In this document: piece after piece, positions 1,444-51,621 of the stretch
How the letters are laid out: each line of letters opens with the position of its first letter
How positions within the stretch are numbered: the stretch's first letter is position 1
Origin: Norana najaformis
Lineage: Eukaryota; Annelida; Clitellata; Crassiclitellata; Hormogastridae
Direction of reading: 5' to 3'
Assembly (NCBI GenBank): GCA_964023275.1
Contig: OZ029929.1
Span: 7,200,437 to 7,264,436, forward strand
DNA: 64,000 nt
The notes under the pieces: model-generated
What the model was told of the DNA's origin: nothing
Databases searched by the model: none
Seen by the model: the letters and a program-made list of their open reading frames with translations, nothing else
Position numbers and translations under genes: made by a program

Positions 1444-1455
1444 TCAAATACGGTA

Positions 1456-1568
1456 GTAGTAGTTCCGCAATTTAACGACAGCTTATGGCATCAAAGGCCG
1501 TTGCCGTCGCCCTCCTCCTTTATCCAGGCTTGGGACTGGCACTACCCCAACAAGGCAGTGGCGGAGTT
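1456..1568 (+). mobile_element. Short SINE-like element F, copy 1, with 12-bp target duplication
   Basis: The element begins GTAGTAGTTCCGC, contains TTTAACGACAGCTTATGGC, ATCAAAGGCCGTTGCCGTCG, CCCTCCTCCTTTATCCAGGC and TTGGGACTGGCAC, and ends GGCAGTGGCGGAGT. It is flanked on both sides by the identical TCAAATACGGTA (1444-1455 and 1569-1580). There is no tRNA-like head, no A-rich or tandem tail and no terminal inverted repeats. The target duplications show that it moved. Central domains of this kind recur in invertebrate SINE superfamilies, but I cannot name this one. Confidence 0.75.
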
Positions 1569-1599
1569 TCAAATACGGTATTATTATGATCTGGTAATT

Positions 1600-10390: not shown

Positions 10391-11265
10391 CATCCACCCA
10401 TCCACCCATCCACCCACCCATTTATCCATTTATCCATCCATCCATCCATCCATCCATCGATCCATCCATCCAACTATCCATCCAACTATCCATCCATCCA
10501 TCCATCCATCCATCCATCCATCCATCCATCCATCCATCCATCCATCCATCCATCCATCCATCCATCCATCCATCCATCCATCCATCCATCCATCCATCCA
10601 TCCATCCATCCATCCATCCATCCATCCATCCATCCATCCATCCATCCATCCATCCATCCATCCATCCATCCATCCATCCATCCATCCATCCATCCATCCA
10701 TCCATCCATCCATCCATCCATCCATCCATCCATCCATCCATCCATCCATCCATCCATCCATCCATCCATCCATCCATCCATCCATCCATCCATCCATCCA
10801 TCCATCCATCCATCCATCCATCCATCCATCCATCCATCCATCCATCCATCCATCCATCCATCCATCCATCCATCCATCCATCCATCCATCCATCCATCCA
10901 TCCATCCATCCATCCATCCATCCATCCATCCATCCATCCATCCATCCATCCATCCATCCATCCATCCATCCATCCATCCATCCATCCATCCATCCATCCA
11001 TCCATCCATCCATCCATCCATCCATCCATCCATCCATCCATCCATCCATCCATCCATCCATCCATCCATCCATCCATCCATCCATCCATACATACATACA
11101 TACATACATACACACATCCATCCATCCATCCATCCATCCATACATACATACACACATCCATCCATCCATCCATCTATACACATACACATATGCATACATA
11201 CATACATACATACATGCACACATACATCCGTCCATTTATCAATCAATCCATTTATCTATCCATAG
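10391..11265. repeat. Long (ATCC)n microsatellite
   Basis: From about 10489 to 11089 it is perfect (about 150 units), flanked by variants with CACC, ATAC, ACAC and ATCT. It starts about 250 bases after a LINE A end. His-Pro-Ser-Ile and Met-Asp-Gly-Trp frames on the two strands are repeat translations. Confidence 0.99.
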
Positions 11266-14290: not shown

Positions 14291-14550
14291 ATGCCAATTT
14301 TTTTTCTTACTGATCTATAAACAGTTTGTTTCTGCACATTCTTCTGCGTGCCTTTGCTTTTCGATGTGCGTATCTGGTTACAGAGAGACCGACGAAGAGG
14401 CTGGCATAGAGATGTCCGTCTACTTCGGTGCTGTCTGTCTGTCTGGCTCTACGTTTTAACGCCTCTCTGCTTCCTCTTTCACCCTCTGTCTATCTTTTTA
14501 TCTTTTTTCCTTTCTTTTTTCTGTTTCTCGATCGATCGACGGAACAATCT

Positions 14551-15075
<525 letters not shown>

Positions 15076-23934: not shown

Positions 23935-26275
23935 ACTTAGCCTTCATCATCTAATCTAGTCTAATGACTTTTATAACTCCATTCTTGTAATCGTTCCTTC
24001 AAGTGAAATCGTAATCAAGATCATAATTCTTTAGAGAAGCCATGTGGAATTCCTCTAGGTCAGAATACCAGAAGCTATGCTACGGTGGGTAAACAAGTTC
24101 AAACAGATGGGTCTCAAGTTGAGATCTGAAGGACATCAAAGAATTGACAGAACGAAGAGAACTTGACAGCGAATTTCAAAGCTTTGGACCAACTACTGAG
24201 AACGTTTCGAGAACCTAACACCGTCCTGGTATGAGGCACGAAAGAGTAACTTTTTCAGTTGCTCAAATGCAATATTTATTGCTATGAAGGGTGAGCATAA
24301 TGTAGAGATAGATCGGCTGATTTAAATGTAGTATTTTAAACTGTAAGACAGATTTTAAGCTGGATTCTTTGCTCAGTAGGCAGCCAGTGTAAGGAAACAA
24401 TATAGGCGTAATATTTTGATATTTAGTGGTATTTCTTATGGCTCTGGTCAGAGAGTTTTGAAGAATTTATACTTTATGCAACTCTCCTCCAGAGATGCAA
24501 ATGAGATGGAGTCCCAGTAGTCAAGTCTGTTACCAACTAACGCATTTGATAGTGAGATCAAGATATTATGAGGCAAATGAGATATGATTCCACGAATATA
24601 CCGTTTATGAAACTGAGGTGATTTGAATATGACCCAAACATGGTTAAAAATGACGTGGTGGAGTCAAATACGGTGTCTAAATTGCCTGCACATTCAGTAC
24701 GGTTAACGGGCAGGCCATCCAACTGAACAGACGCAATTCAATCACAATGGCTTGTGCCTAGGACGAAGAATTCGGTTTGAAGAATTCAGAATAAGTTTTT
24801 TACTAGACATCCAAGACTGAATATCGCCAAAAGCAGCAGCAGCAAGTATTTGAAGAGCAGGATAAGATGTGGAAATGTCGAATGAGAGGAATAGATGTAT
24901 ATTGTCAACGTACAAGTGGTAATCAAGAGAGCTATCAGCAAGCAATGAATCGAATGCAACGGTATGTAATGTGAACAGAAGCGGGCCCAGTACAGAACCT
25001 CGTGGAATGCCGCAACTCAAAGCATTGGGTGCGGAATGTAAATGTAAATGTACACGTTTTTCTACAGGGACCTTATGGACTCGACCCTTCTCATCTAAAA
25101 TGAATCAGTCAGGCGAGATCCTTCACCACAGGTGCCACGGAAGTCAGTTGGTTGATACGAACTGATGGAGTACGAGGATGCAAAACAGGATGAGAGCCAT
25201 ATGAGAGTGGTATCAAAAAGACCGAACATGTGTTTGCGGTGGTGAAGGATTATGCCTTGATTAACAGTAGTAAAAGTGGCAGATAGGTTGAGAAGATTAA
25301 AAGCAGTTACTTTTCCTTTGTCCATGGAGTTGATTATGTGAGTGTGTATGGTAAGTAGGACGGTTTCAGTGGAATGGTATTTGCGGTAGGCTTTTTGCGA
25401 AGATGGGAAACTATGGCAAGAGCGAAACTGGCGAAAAAAGGCCTTCAGCAAAAGAGAGGTTGACGATAGATGTGCCATTTGGGCCCGACATCAAAGCATT
25501 CTTTGAGAAGGGCGTTTGGAATAAGGTCCAATGCTCATTGTTTATCAGAGGAAGAAATAATGAGGTTACGCATCTCAGTTAGAGTTGTTGGTTGATGTTG
25601 AGAAGATTTAGTGTGTGATAGGCCATCCGAAGAAGGAACGGTGAAAACTTTGAGTCTAAGGGCCGAGATCTCGTCAGAAAAGAAGAGTAAAAACTTATTC
25701 GGCAAAGAAGAGTATGACCTAGGTAGTATATTGCATTTTTCACCAGCGATAGTAATCTTGAAGAAGATAAGTTTTCATTGACTAAATTAGTAAAGTAGGT
25801 GGATTTGGCTGCTGAGATGAATTTGCAGACAATGCGACACAGGAGCCTAAATTGGAGGTGATGAAAAGGTAATGGAAACGTCGCTAGGAACCTTTCAAGC
25901 CGGAGCGGGCTTCTGGCAGATGTTATATTTGAGATGAAACAGGGTTGGGAAGGGCGTGCTGGAAGACTCTTACAGTTAGCAGGTCTGTGCTTGTTCAGGA
26001 TTTCAGATACAGTTGTGTTTTAAATTGGCAGCAAATTCGGTAGCTGTTTCTGCTGGATACAATTCCAGATGGGAAATAAGGATAGCAGATGTAAAACCTG
26101 AAAAGCTGAGCACTTTCGAAGGACGGTAACAGAAGATAGAGTAAGTGGATAGGGTCTTACGAAGGGTAGAAACCTGAATAGCAATGGTAATGTTAGCAAC
26201 CATTCCATTCTGGTGGCGCCGCCTGACGAATAAACGATAATCTACCGACAAACAAACAGACATAAGTTGCCTATT
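23935..26275 (-). mobile_element. Degenerate CR1/L2-type LINE, reverse-transcriptase region and 3' end
   Basis: This is the longest coding relic. Read on the minus strand, the order is as follows. A pre-RT segment contains YRPSKVLSFSGF (~26100). FFSDEISALRLKV follows (~25660), then ALDLIPNALLKECFD (~25510) and NLSFAEGLF (~25460). The RT blocks are AYRKYHSTETVLL (~25370), LLNLSATFTTVN (~25270), CGIPRGSVLGPLLF (~25000) and YHLYVDNIHLFLSF (~24900). In active CR1/L2 enzymes these would read close to LDPIPT, AYR..HSTETAL, LLDLSAAFDTVDH, GVPQGSVLGP and YADD. The catalytic YxDD is changed to YVDN, and there are stops and frameshifts, so the copy is dead. No endonuclease domain was found upstream. 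The 3' end (~23940-24060) matches several short fragments elsewhere in the window. A second element interrupts the RT at 25036-25132. Confidence 0.85.
25036..25132 (-). mobile_element. Short retroelement 3' fragment (TAAATG-tailed family) nested in the LINE
   Basis: On the plus strand it starts with a TGTAAATGTAAATGTACACG tail, then TTTTTCTACAGGGACC and GAGATCCTTCACCAC. It matches 21711-21825 and 44232-44335 in the same orientation. It splits the RT between the WLSS block and the GIPRGSVLGP block. A short GGTGC lies on both sides and may be what remains of a target duplication. Confidence 0.65.
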
Positions 26276-30416: not shown

Positions 30417-30428
30417 ATTAATAGTTTG

Positions 30429-30529
30429 GTTCCTTCAGTTTAACGACATCTTATGATATCAAAGGCCGTTGATGTCGCCCTCCTCCTTTATCCAGGCTTG
30501 GGACGGGCACTAAAGGCAGTGGCGGAGTT
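30429..30529 (+). mobile_element. Short SINE-like element F, copy 2, with 12-bp target duplication
   Basis: Same element as 1456-1568: TTTAACGACATCTTATGAT, ATCAAAGGCCGTTGATGTCG, TTTATCCAGGCTTGGGACGG and GGCAGTGGCGGAG. The flanks are the identical ATTAATAGTTTG (30417-30428 and 30530-30541). A few bases are deleted around GGCAC(T)AAAGG. Confidence 0.75.
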
Positions 30530-30659
30530 ATTAATAGTTTGTAAGGCCGGACTACCTTTAATAGCGGCATGACTAATTTGCACGCGCCTGTCATCAAACA
30601 AATGAGACAGAAAGAGGGAGACGTTCAGAATGGACAGAGGTCATAAAAAGAGGTCGAGA

Positions 30660-31143: not shown

Positions 31144-32106
31144 TAATCCTAACGAGCGCCGTCCGCGTGAATCCGAGAGTCTAGTCCATTGCTACTGGAG
31201 GGCACAGCCCTTGGGCGCGAAGTCTGTTCGGATCGTTAGAGTCGCAGATGTTCGTCAGATGCTGAAGCTGTCAGAAGTTGAAGACCGCCAAGCGCCGTTG
31301 CTGAGGGGCTGCGAAGACAGATGTTAAGCTGCGAAGAAGGGTGAATTAAGGGTGGGACCGAAAAAACAGCTGAATGGAGAGCAAGGTACAATGATAGATA
31401 AAACCGCAGATAACACATTTGTTGTTTTGGATGTGGAGGAGGGATGGAGAGAGGAAGTGAGGACGGGAGAATGAGGCCAGGGTAGAGGGTGTAAATAAGG
31501 AAGGCGTGAGTGACGATAAAATCGGCTTTAATCAAAATATTATTCGAATCTGGACGACAAAACAATGAAATGGTCGATCTTCTCGCTCCCTCCCTCCCTC
31601 CTTCCCACCATCTCCCCCTCCCTTCCTCCTTCCTCCCTCCATACATACACACATGCATACATACATTCATACATACATCAGTACATGCATACATACATCA
31701 ATATATACATACATACATACCCACATCTCTAAATAACACTTTCGTTATTGCTACCGGTGGAATTGACATTAACATTGGTATTGACATTAACACAACACTA
31801 GTCGAATGTGAACACTAACATCTTTCTGCATACTTATATTAACAGTTTTAGGTGTCGTCGCTGCCAGCGACAATCATGATAATGACGACAACGACAATGA
31901 CTATGATGACGATGATGACGACGACGACAATGATGATGAATGGAGGAGAGTGCATGTGAATGAATCAACGAATGACCTTTAGATTTATTGTTCTATTTGA
32001 TCTGACTATCCTTTTTTGTGATTATCCAACTATCTGATTCTGCAAATGTCCGACTATTTGCTATTTCATCTTAAGCCTATAACTGGCTGACTGACCGACT
32101 GTCCGA
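31144..32106. other. Unassigned sequence with (ATAC)n and GAC-rich patches
   Basis: CCTCCCTCCTT at 31590-31640, CATACATA at 31640-31720, and GACGATGATGACG at 31890-31940. No gene recognised. Confidence 0.5.
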
Positions 32107-32114
32107 TTAATTAA

Positions 32115-32234
32115 CTCGGCCACTGCCGTATTCTGGTGGTGCCAGTCCCAACCTGGATAGAGGAGGAGAGCGACGTCAACGGCCTTTGATGCCATAAGAT
32201 GTCGTTAAACATCGGAACTACTACTTCTACCCGC
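32115..32234 (-). mobile_element. Short SINE-like element F, copy 3, with 8-bp target duplication
   Basis: The minus-strand copy includes TAGTAGTTCCGATGTTTAAC, GACATCTTATGGCATCAAAG, GCCGTTGACGTCGC and GGCAGTGGCCGAG. It is flanked by TTAATTAA (32107-32114 and 32235-32242). It shows the element's start to be at or before TAGTAGTTCC. Confidence 0.7.
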
Positions 32235-32269
32235 TTAATTAATTGGTAGGATATCGGACCACGGGACTA

Positions 32270-47399: not shown

Positions 47400-48265
47400 A
47401 GACAGACTGCCTTTAACCATGCAAATGTCCTGTGCTATTTATCAGGATTCGTCACCCACATCTAAATTCGCATTTACAGGTTTTTATTTTTTCCTTCAAA
47501 TTCGACTTTTCAAGTTTTTATTTTTCGGCAATATGTTTTACTATTTGGGTTTGGGCAGTTTTCGTGTCAATTTAAACATTACTTGAACATATAAAGCTGT
47601 TATATATTTTATCTCTTTGGTCGCTTAATTAACCGGACGAACATCTCTTTAACATCATCATGACTCCATCATAGCATCATCGCTCCACCATACTCAGAAG
47701 TACCGCGAGCGCAACTTGGCAATTTTTGCTTTCACTAACTGACGTACTTCTACTATGGTCAAACAGCTTTCTGGAACATTTCACAGAGGTCAGCTAACTC
47801 CTCAAAAACGGCGTTTAAAACATTTAGTGGATTAGGATTTGTTTCATCCTTCAATCAAAACTTGTACACGGGTAGTTATTTTCAATCACCTATTGTTTAC
47901 AATATTTGCTCATTACGCTGTTATGCGAGAGAGCAGTCAGTCTTAGAGCCCTGTATTACGAAATATCCATAATGCATCCATTAAAGAGACCATAAAGGTC
48001 AGAGTTCAGAAAGCTCCGTTCATAAGTCTTACTTCGCGCGCACACTGGTGGGAATTGATATCCAGCTCAGTAGCCCAGTGTATTATGTGGTCCAGATGAA
48101 TGCGATTAAAGTTTCGGTGGACACTTAACAACCTAGGCTAGCACGTTGTATGGTTTCGCAATATGTGGCATGGAACATTGTTTTGGCCTTCTGAACATAA
48201 TAGGCTAAATATTCCAGCGTCTGTAACAGTGAGCTAAATTTAACGTTGAAATAATATCAACACTC
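47400..48265. other. Unassigned sequence
   Basis: Non-repetitive by eye; no gene, splice pattern or element recognised. Confidence 0.5.
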
Positions 48266-48269
48266 CCCA

Positions 48270-48746
48270 AATTTATGCGCTATCAGAAAATGTTGTGTGC
48301 GCAATCCTCAAATATCGTGTATGCGCAAGTGGGCATCTGGTCCTTAAAATTTGGAAATCGCTCCATAGCCATAACTGCTCCATCCCTCTGGAATAAACTT
48401 CCGCAAGAATTACGACAATTATCTGACCCATCATACGAACTCACCAACACTTTACCTCTTGCAATTTCTAGGCTGGTCTTTAAGTGAAGACTGAATCCAT
48501 TACTCTTCCAAAAATCTTATCCTGGTTCTTTCTCTTCTCCTTTTCTGTCCCTCCGCTCCAATCCGAAGCACCATCCGCCGTAGCCGTCTGACTGCATGCC
48601 TGCCTGCCTGCTGGATCTTGACCTGGAACCAAACTCTTTCTGCCTATCAATTTTTGTTTTGACTGAGCGCCAGTGAATAAGCTGGTTCAAGCTACTTGGC
48701 TTTTGTTGGGCGCTGTAGAAATCTCTAGCTTACGATTACGATTACA
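48270..48746 (+). mobile_element. LINE family A with intact reverse-transcriptase C-terminus and 3' end
   Basis: An open frame (48275-48487) reads RSIAITAPSLWNKLPQELRQ, then LSDPSYELTN and LAISRLVFK before a stop. This is the LINE C-terminal signature, where full copies continue FHSKLKTFLF. The 3' untranslated part follows with pyrimidine-rich sequence, CTGCCTGCCTGC, the TTGTTTTGACTGAGCGCC...GGGCGCTGTAGAAATC hairpin and the TTACGATTACGATTAC tail. It is the copy that best joins coding end to tail for this family. Confidence 0.8.
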
Positions 48747-51573: not shown

Positions 51574-51621
51574 GATCGACGTCAACGGCCATCGCAGCCA
51601 CAAGATGTCGTTACACACTGG
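51574..51621 (-). mobile_element. Short SINE-like element F, partial copy 4
   Basis: Only the 5' half is seen: GATCGACGTCAACGGCCATC, GCAGCCACAAGATGTCGTTA. No target duplication is visible. Confidence 0.45.

Follow-up and report, generated by a model that had tools for sequence, protein, structure and literature searches.

A dispersed, probable retroposon of about 110 nucleotides with a predicted twister ribozyme at its 5' end in the annelid Norana najaformis

The short dispersed repeat described here, which we call F, is very probably a non-autonomous retroposon of about 110 nt composed of two RNA modules, i.e., a predicted twister ribozyme without stem P1 at its 5' end and, following it, a two-step hairpin that is usually succeeded by a short CTA tail at the 3' end. 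In the usual description, a SINE is a Pol III gene that has borrowed the tail of a LINE. The dispersed, SINE-like family F seems to rely on RNA catalysis, in place of a Pol III head, for the definition of its 5' end. The genomic evidence, read copy by copy at the expected cleavage bond, suggests that new copies have their front end set by a ribozyme and not by a promoter of the tRNA type.

Copies in the window and their predicted twister

The window, i.e., the whole stretch of 64,000 nt that was analysed, contains three copies of F with target-site duplications; they were found where an earlier note on this DNA, made from the letters alone, had placed them. The first, F1, occupies positions 1456-1568 on the minus strand, and its 5' end (AACTCC...) at 1568 lies directly beside a 12-bp duplication (TCAAATACGGTA, identical at 12/12 positions, at 1444-1455 on the RNA 3' side and 1569-1580 on the RNA 5' side). 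F2 (30429-30529, minus strand) has a short P3 loop, is without CTA tail and is bordered by ATTAATAGTTTG (12/12) at 30417-30428 and 30530-30541. F3 (32113-32234, plus strand) ends in a CTA-like tail, has a conserved P4 loop that is one base short, and is flanked by a duplication of 7-8 bp, ATTAATT, at 32106-32112 and 32238-32244. The RNA sense is that of the minus strand for F1 and F2 and of the plus strand for F3, and the three copies are 83-88% identical in pairwise BLAST comparisons. Perfect 12-bp duplications, which had been claimed for all three copies, are present at F1 and F2 but not at F3, where the proposed TTAATTAA corresponds to the duplication ATTAATT, offset to include the two A with which the element begins. 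A fourth site at 51574-51621 (plus strand), listed earlier as a partial copy, is real, although it carries the 3' hairpin domain alone, without twister, in a variant common to a satellite-like repeat (see below), and it is doubtful whether it represents a partial copy of F. The window also contains very long and clean tetranucleotide arrays, i.e., CATC x196 at 10391-11174 (95% match) and ATCT x131 at 14547-15071 (97%).

An Rfam search of F1 returned one meaningful match, the type-P1 twister RF03160, which extends over all 68 model positions at 1506-1573 on the minus strand (65.4 bits, E 5e-15). The same model matches F2 at 30474-30534 (minus strand, 50.1 bits, E 3.5e-8) and F3 at 32108-32175 (plus strand, 33.2 bits, E 0.0024). 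All three scores are under the gathering (curated) cut-off of RF03160, which is 67.2 bits. Membership by curated score is, therefore, a property of the family and not of the window copies: in the species' own genome (608 Mb, 17 contigs), 62 matches to RF03160, a lower bound, were scored from 42,432 first-look candidates (a number that does not represent copy number), and 30 of these 62 lie above the cut-off, the best at 71.8 bits. None of 14 control genomes gave a match to this model. Besides the twister, the Rfam search of F1 yielded one miRNA family at 16 bits, which was taken as chance and rejected as a source of the element; the miRNA matches in the search of the window copies are mostly on simple repeats. 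At the curated thresholds of Rfam nothing matched in the window, which thus holds no tRNA, 5S or 7SL; ARAGORN likewise detected no tRNA in it, and no hammerhead was among its Rfam matches. Two exact patterns gave no match in viral contigs, and no phage records matched.

The earlier note had described F as having neither head nor tail. This proved to be incorrect on both counts: the head is the predicted twister matched by RF03160, and F1 and F3 finish in CTA-type repeats (in F1 at 1456-1463, minus strand) on the strand opposite to the one that had been read, while F2 has no tail. Head and tail had been missed because the wrong strand was read; a plus-strand reading with the head at TTTAACGAC is ruled out by the strand of the Rfam match and the side of the tail, both of which indicate the minus strand. 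Apart from the strand, the idea of a minimal SINE-like retroposed element without tRNA head has held up, and that of a retrocopied small RNA is right in a special sense only, as the copied RNA would probably be the 3' product of self-cleavage.

In F1 the model positions 1-5 fall on target DNA (1569-1573), and position 6 is the first A of AACTCC, which is the first base of the element. In a review, cleavage is placed at U5-A6 and stem P1 is described as dispensable for cleavage (PMC6154101). Consequently, the element starts at the expected cleavage bond, which in F1 is predicted between 1569 and 1568. The 5' strand of P1 is target DNA, and this stem is paired in 30.9% of cells versus 29.7% in shuffles, i.e., at about chance level. 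The consensus of RF03160 has a conserved U before the cut, whereas in the 95 full-length copies of F (see below) this base is A in 38, U in 33, G in 13, and C in 11 cases. With U preceding the cut in only 33 of the 95 copies, many of them may cleave poorly. The identification of the putative ribozyme rests on the model score in combination with the position of the 5' ends.

An ordinary SINE, with a Pol III head that escapes recognition and an incidental likeness to the twister, would also be short and repeated, with a fixed 5' end and target duplications. It is, however, highly improbable that F is such an element: neither a tRNA nor a 5S or 7SL RNA was matched, so no Pol III head was found, and the E value of the twister match of F1, the 30 genome matches above the cut-off, and the location of the 5' end on the expected cleavage bond all argue against an incidental likeness.

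Fixed 5' ends and marks of retroposition

A sample that avoids the choice of full-length copies was obtained by searching the genome with only the last 64 nt of the element, which yielded 43 matches at 40 places; 39 of these places were examined, with window copy F3 omitted. The alignment starts at base 1 in 32 of the 39 copies and at bases 2-5 in a further five, and the remaining two start at bases 9 and 23. LINE-like variable truncation is thus rare in this sample, since 37/39 copies start within base 5. The absence of a tRNA head, as claimed in the earlier note, is borne out by Rfam, by ARAGORN, and by these 37 copies that start within 5 nt of the common 5' end, and the longer, tRNA-headed copies that it proposed to look for do not occur among the 39 copies sampled by their 3' end alone. 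The genome search that it also proposed was performed with a 98-nt query and gave at least 41 matches in the species' own genome (40 of 247 candidates were scored), which shows that the repeat is not a product of chance.

The same fixed 5' end would be expected if F were the 3'-terminal fragment of a LINE, the 3' UTR of which would contain the twister, the hairpin and the CTA tail, so that self-cleavage of its mRNA would free a 110-nt piece that is then retroposed. A repeat motif from fish, GTCCCAAGCCCGGATAAA...GGGAGGG followed by a possible hairpin, seems to combine the same two modules. Against such an origin, 37 of the 39 copies in the 3'-end sample terminate no more than 5 nt from the cleavage site and do not continue upstream, and the occurrence of tandem F units with a target duplication between them (see below) suggests that F copies themselves act as units. 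We consider a LINE fragment, therefore, unlikely and prefer the interpretation of F as a retroposon in its own right.

The collected loci and the window together contain 193 twister or hairpin matches, 153 of which are distinct and have enough flank. Of the latter, 95 pass the full-length filter for F, a set that includes several units of single arrays, so that its members are not all independent. An exact target duplication of ≥8 bp is present in 43 of the 95 full-length copies, compared to 41 of 5000 (0.8%) when flanks were swapped between copies, and one of ≥10 bp in 30 of the 95, compared to 13 of 5000; the other 52 copies have no exact duplication of ≥8 bp. Of these 43 duplications of ≥8 bp, 26 lie immediately next to A1 and 11 are separated from it by one base. 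A scan in which no boundary was assumed returned 47 copies that carry a duplication of ≥9 bp, and in 33 of these copies it is at most 3 nt away from A1. In three of the six best ribozyme matches (L102, L104, L106), inspection by eye reveals a duplication of 10-14 bp directly beside A1. Most target duplications measure 7-18 bp, and both their length and the 3' tail vary among copies, which is a mark of retroposition. F thus possesses the duplications and 3' tail that mark the target-primed reverse transcription of SIDEs and, at the sequence level, a predicted equivalent of the self-cleaving ribozyme that heads their inserted unit.

The presence of the 3' hairpin domain in a satellite-like repeat and the enrichment of the best ribozyme matches near chromosome ends would agree with F being either a DNA-mediated element, such as a MITE, or the dispersed unit of a satellite. 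Of the 62 twister matches, 50 lie within 15% of a chromosome end, where a uniform distribution would place 30%; the corresponding numbers are 19 of 40 for the places of F found by the 3' end and, for RTE elements, 12 among the first 60 of the 125 matches. However, no terminal inverted repeat is visible by eye in F1, F2 or F3, and the varying duplication length and the 3' tail are those of a retroposed sequence, which makes such an explanation extremely improbable.

Retroposition of F has apparently continued until recently. Three pairs of copies at different places are identical over 102 nt and have different flanks (e.g., L025 and L028), indicating that the family moved recently. Compared with the most similar copy at a different locus, the 95 copies show a median of seven differences.

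RNA structure, tandem units and a possible route of multiplication

For the study of RNA structure, 98 of 114 selected copies were aligned, a set that takes in a second family, G, the hairpin of which differs from that of F; the 16 copies that were omitted comprise nine further array units and seven left out by no strict rule. In these 98 copies, helices P2, P3 and P4, pseudoknot T1 and the 3' hairpin are paired in 93.4% of 2441 cells (90.5% in shuffles), with values of 91-97% for the individual helices, and the P2, P3, P4 and T1 of a twister are thus kept. Changes on both sides of a pair occur in 68 cells versus 16.9 in shuffles (68 being reached in 0/500) and 13-27 with slid partners. The 3' hairpin accounts for 61 of them, P2 for three and P3 for four, and P4 and T1 for none. 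In F1 this hairpin is found at 1477-1508 (minus strand), with an outer stem GACGGC/GCTGTC and an inner stem GGC/GCC, and both helices show compensatory changes across the 98 copies, e.g., GACGTC/GATGTC, GACGGC/GCTGTC and GACGCT/AGCGTC. The count is weaker at the level of pairs, 11 of which show a change on both sides, a number reached by 14 of 500 shuffles and comparable to the 9-16 of the slid controls. The 3' hairpin is well supported as an RNA structure by its compensatory changes, whereas covariation in the predicted ribozyme core is thin and the support for the latter comes mainly from the model score. Folding by minimum free energy, a method that takes no account of pseudoknots, does not set the element apart in the three copies folded (z -1.15, -0.84 and -0.10). 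Members of the twister-headed family G, with its different 3' hairpin, occur at L094:338-445, L096:2155-2261 and L007:2084-2167; in L007 a duplication is visible by eye.

Some copies of F are arranged in tandem: 22 head-to-tail pairs with starts ≤200 nt apart are present at 10 distinct places of the collected loci (L004 and L012 being counted as one place). One array (L026) consists of six intact units and one degenerate unit at a spacing of 123-126 nt, with spacers that are the target duplication. As one of its units is identical to a copy on another chromosome (L023), it probably grew by repeated insertion into one nick. Locus L088 contains two different copies and three duplications of ACACGTGTATCA, and at L072 a dimer with a foreign spacer between its units lies within a single outer duplication, an arrangement indicating that a two-unit RNA was probably inserted uncut. 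These pairs, the array at L026 and the dimer at L072 would fit a twister retrozyme, in which transcripts of tandem arrays are cut to monomers and circularized by a tRNA ligase, the circles being the transposition intermediate, a route that has been proposed for the hammerhead retrozymes of animals. Yet by the ≤200-nt criterion a tandem arrangement occurs at only three of the 39 places in the 3'-end sample, to which L088 can be added as a place where the second copy is too damaged for this count. A linear template accounts for the majority of copies, which occur singly with a straight 5' end and in many cases with a 3' tail. The spacers of L026 and L088, being target duplications, are explained by repeated insertion at one site. 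It is, therefore, quite improbable that F is a retrozyme of this kind, and a linear RNA remains our preferred template for F.

Two RTE families are abundant: 12,204 first-look candidates in the whole genome yielded at least 125 scored matches, and Pfam RVT_1 and Exo_endo_phos domains were found in one copy of each. Two RTE copies (L098 and L099) have open frames of 1115 and 1066 aa. F itself, at about 110 nt, is too short for the APE endonuclease and reverse transcriptase of an RTE element. One copy of each of the two commonest RTE families contains neither a twister (Rfam E up to 1) nor the hairpin of F. The hairpin is likewise absent from the 1.7 kb downstream of a third RTE-like fragment (L075, continued in L101) and from the 400 bp downstream of 10 matches to CR1-like LINE fragments in the collected loci. 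The LINE partner of F may be some other LINE than the two RTE families. The window contains broken LINE fragments at 24745-26019 (minus strand) and 48233-48484 (plus strand), which, by motif, we presume to be CR1/L2-like.

The 3' hairpin domain is also found within a satellite-like repeat on contigs C11, C12, C13, C15 and C4, with at least 45 matches (40 of 2712 candidates scored). This repeat was rejected as parent LINE, as it recurs at about 160 or 300 bp and mostly near chromosome ends. Longer repeats with the hairpin and a different preceding block (around GTGAAAACTGTACAATTTTTTTCC) are present at L053, L077, L079, L093 and L096. When the 14 matches to longer hairpin-bearing repeats are compared in pairs, the similarity mostly begins no earlier than about 25-30 nt ahead of the hairpin.

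Taken together, a copy of F would be transcribed within a longer RNA from neighbouring promoters, and the twister would cut this RNA directly before A1 of AACTCC, at the junction with the flank. The hairpin and CTA tail of the 3' product would presumably serve as the handle for the reverse transcriptase of a LINE, and target-primed reverse transcription at a nicked target would use this product as template, leaving the duplications and a 5' end at A1. In fixing the 5' end by its cut, the ribozyme would take over the role that a Pol III head has in an ordinary SINE. P1 is absent, and no part of a twister other than the 5' strand of P1 is situated upstream of the cut, so that a new copy would carry nearly the whole ribozyme wherever it lands. 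We tentatively suggest that the P1-less twister could be a portable processing signal, which would allow the element to be cut out from any transcribed place with neither a promoter nor a fixed site, while arrays formed by repeated insertion into the same nick might give many monomers per transcript and possibly circular monomers, in the manner of a twister-type retrozyme. If true, this would add a further, dispersed way of existing as a SINE-like element to those based on a Pol III head or on a ribozyme head of the HDV type. A 5' end defined by RNA catalysis would assign the twister a concrete function in an animal genome, and the family makes testable how an element without promoter multiplies.

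Comparison with known systems

Relative to the type-P1 twister of RF03160, F is alike in core sequence and structure at the curated score and differs in being without stem P1. Truncated twisters at the 5' ends of RTE elements are mentioned in one sentence of a 2020 review, as work in preparation (PMC7761336). Like F, these are located at the 5' end of non-LTR elements and are thought to trim it from upstream transcripts, whereas F is non-coding and only about 110 nt long, and its twister and hairpin are absent from the two RTE copies examined here. The hammerhead retrozymes of metazoans resemble F in being small, ribozyme-bearing, non-autonomous non-LTR elements with tandem units; they are described as having a type I hammerhead, units of 150-450 bp and a demonstrated circular RNA (PMC7229834), whereas F is mostly single and its Rfam match is to a twister and not to a type I hammerhead.

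In the accessible literature, which leaves aside bioRxiv and most subscription journals and can thus not prove absence, none of the papers listed describes a twister-headed SINE or SIDE in its title or the opening of its abstract. The R2 SIDEs and R2/R1 hybrid SIDEs of Drosophila are short, non-autonomous elements with an HDV-like ribozyme that has been shown to cleave, and those of the R1 type have 14-bp duplications (PMC3414825). R2 SIDEs share with F a self-cleaving ribozyme at the 5' end (predicted in F) and a 3' end recognised by a LINE (presumed in F); they are reported not to be transcribed by Pol III (PMC3414825), and in F no Pol III head was matched. In contrast, R2 SIDEs are located at fixed sites of the rDNA, and their RNA is released from 28S cotranscripts (PMC3414825), whereas the head of F is a predicted twister and its copies are scattered across the genome. 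F would work like a SIDE; a LINE sharing its ends, the one further feature of this class, was not found in the two RTE copies. The NARTc, RIME and SIDER elements of trypanosomatids are, like F, short with a ribozyme (predicted in F) at the 5' end, and they are derived from a LINE; unlike in F, their ribozyme is HDV-like and doubles as an internal promoter, and the LINE parent is known, L1Tc or ingi (PMC4035085). From what these sources describe, the closest known systems to F are the R2 SIDEs and NARTc/SIDER, with their HDV-like heads, and the twisters of RTE elements mentioned in the review.
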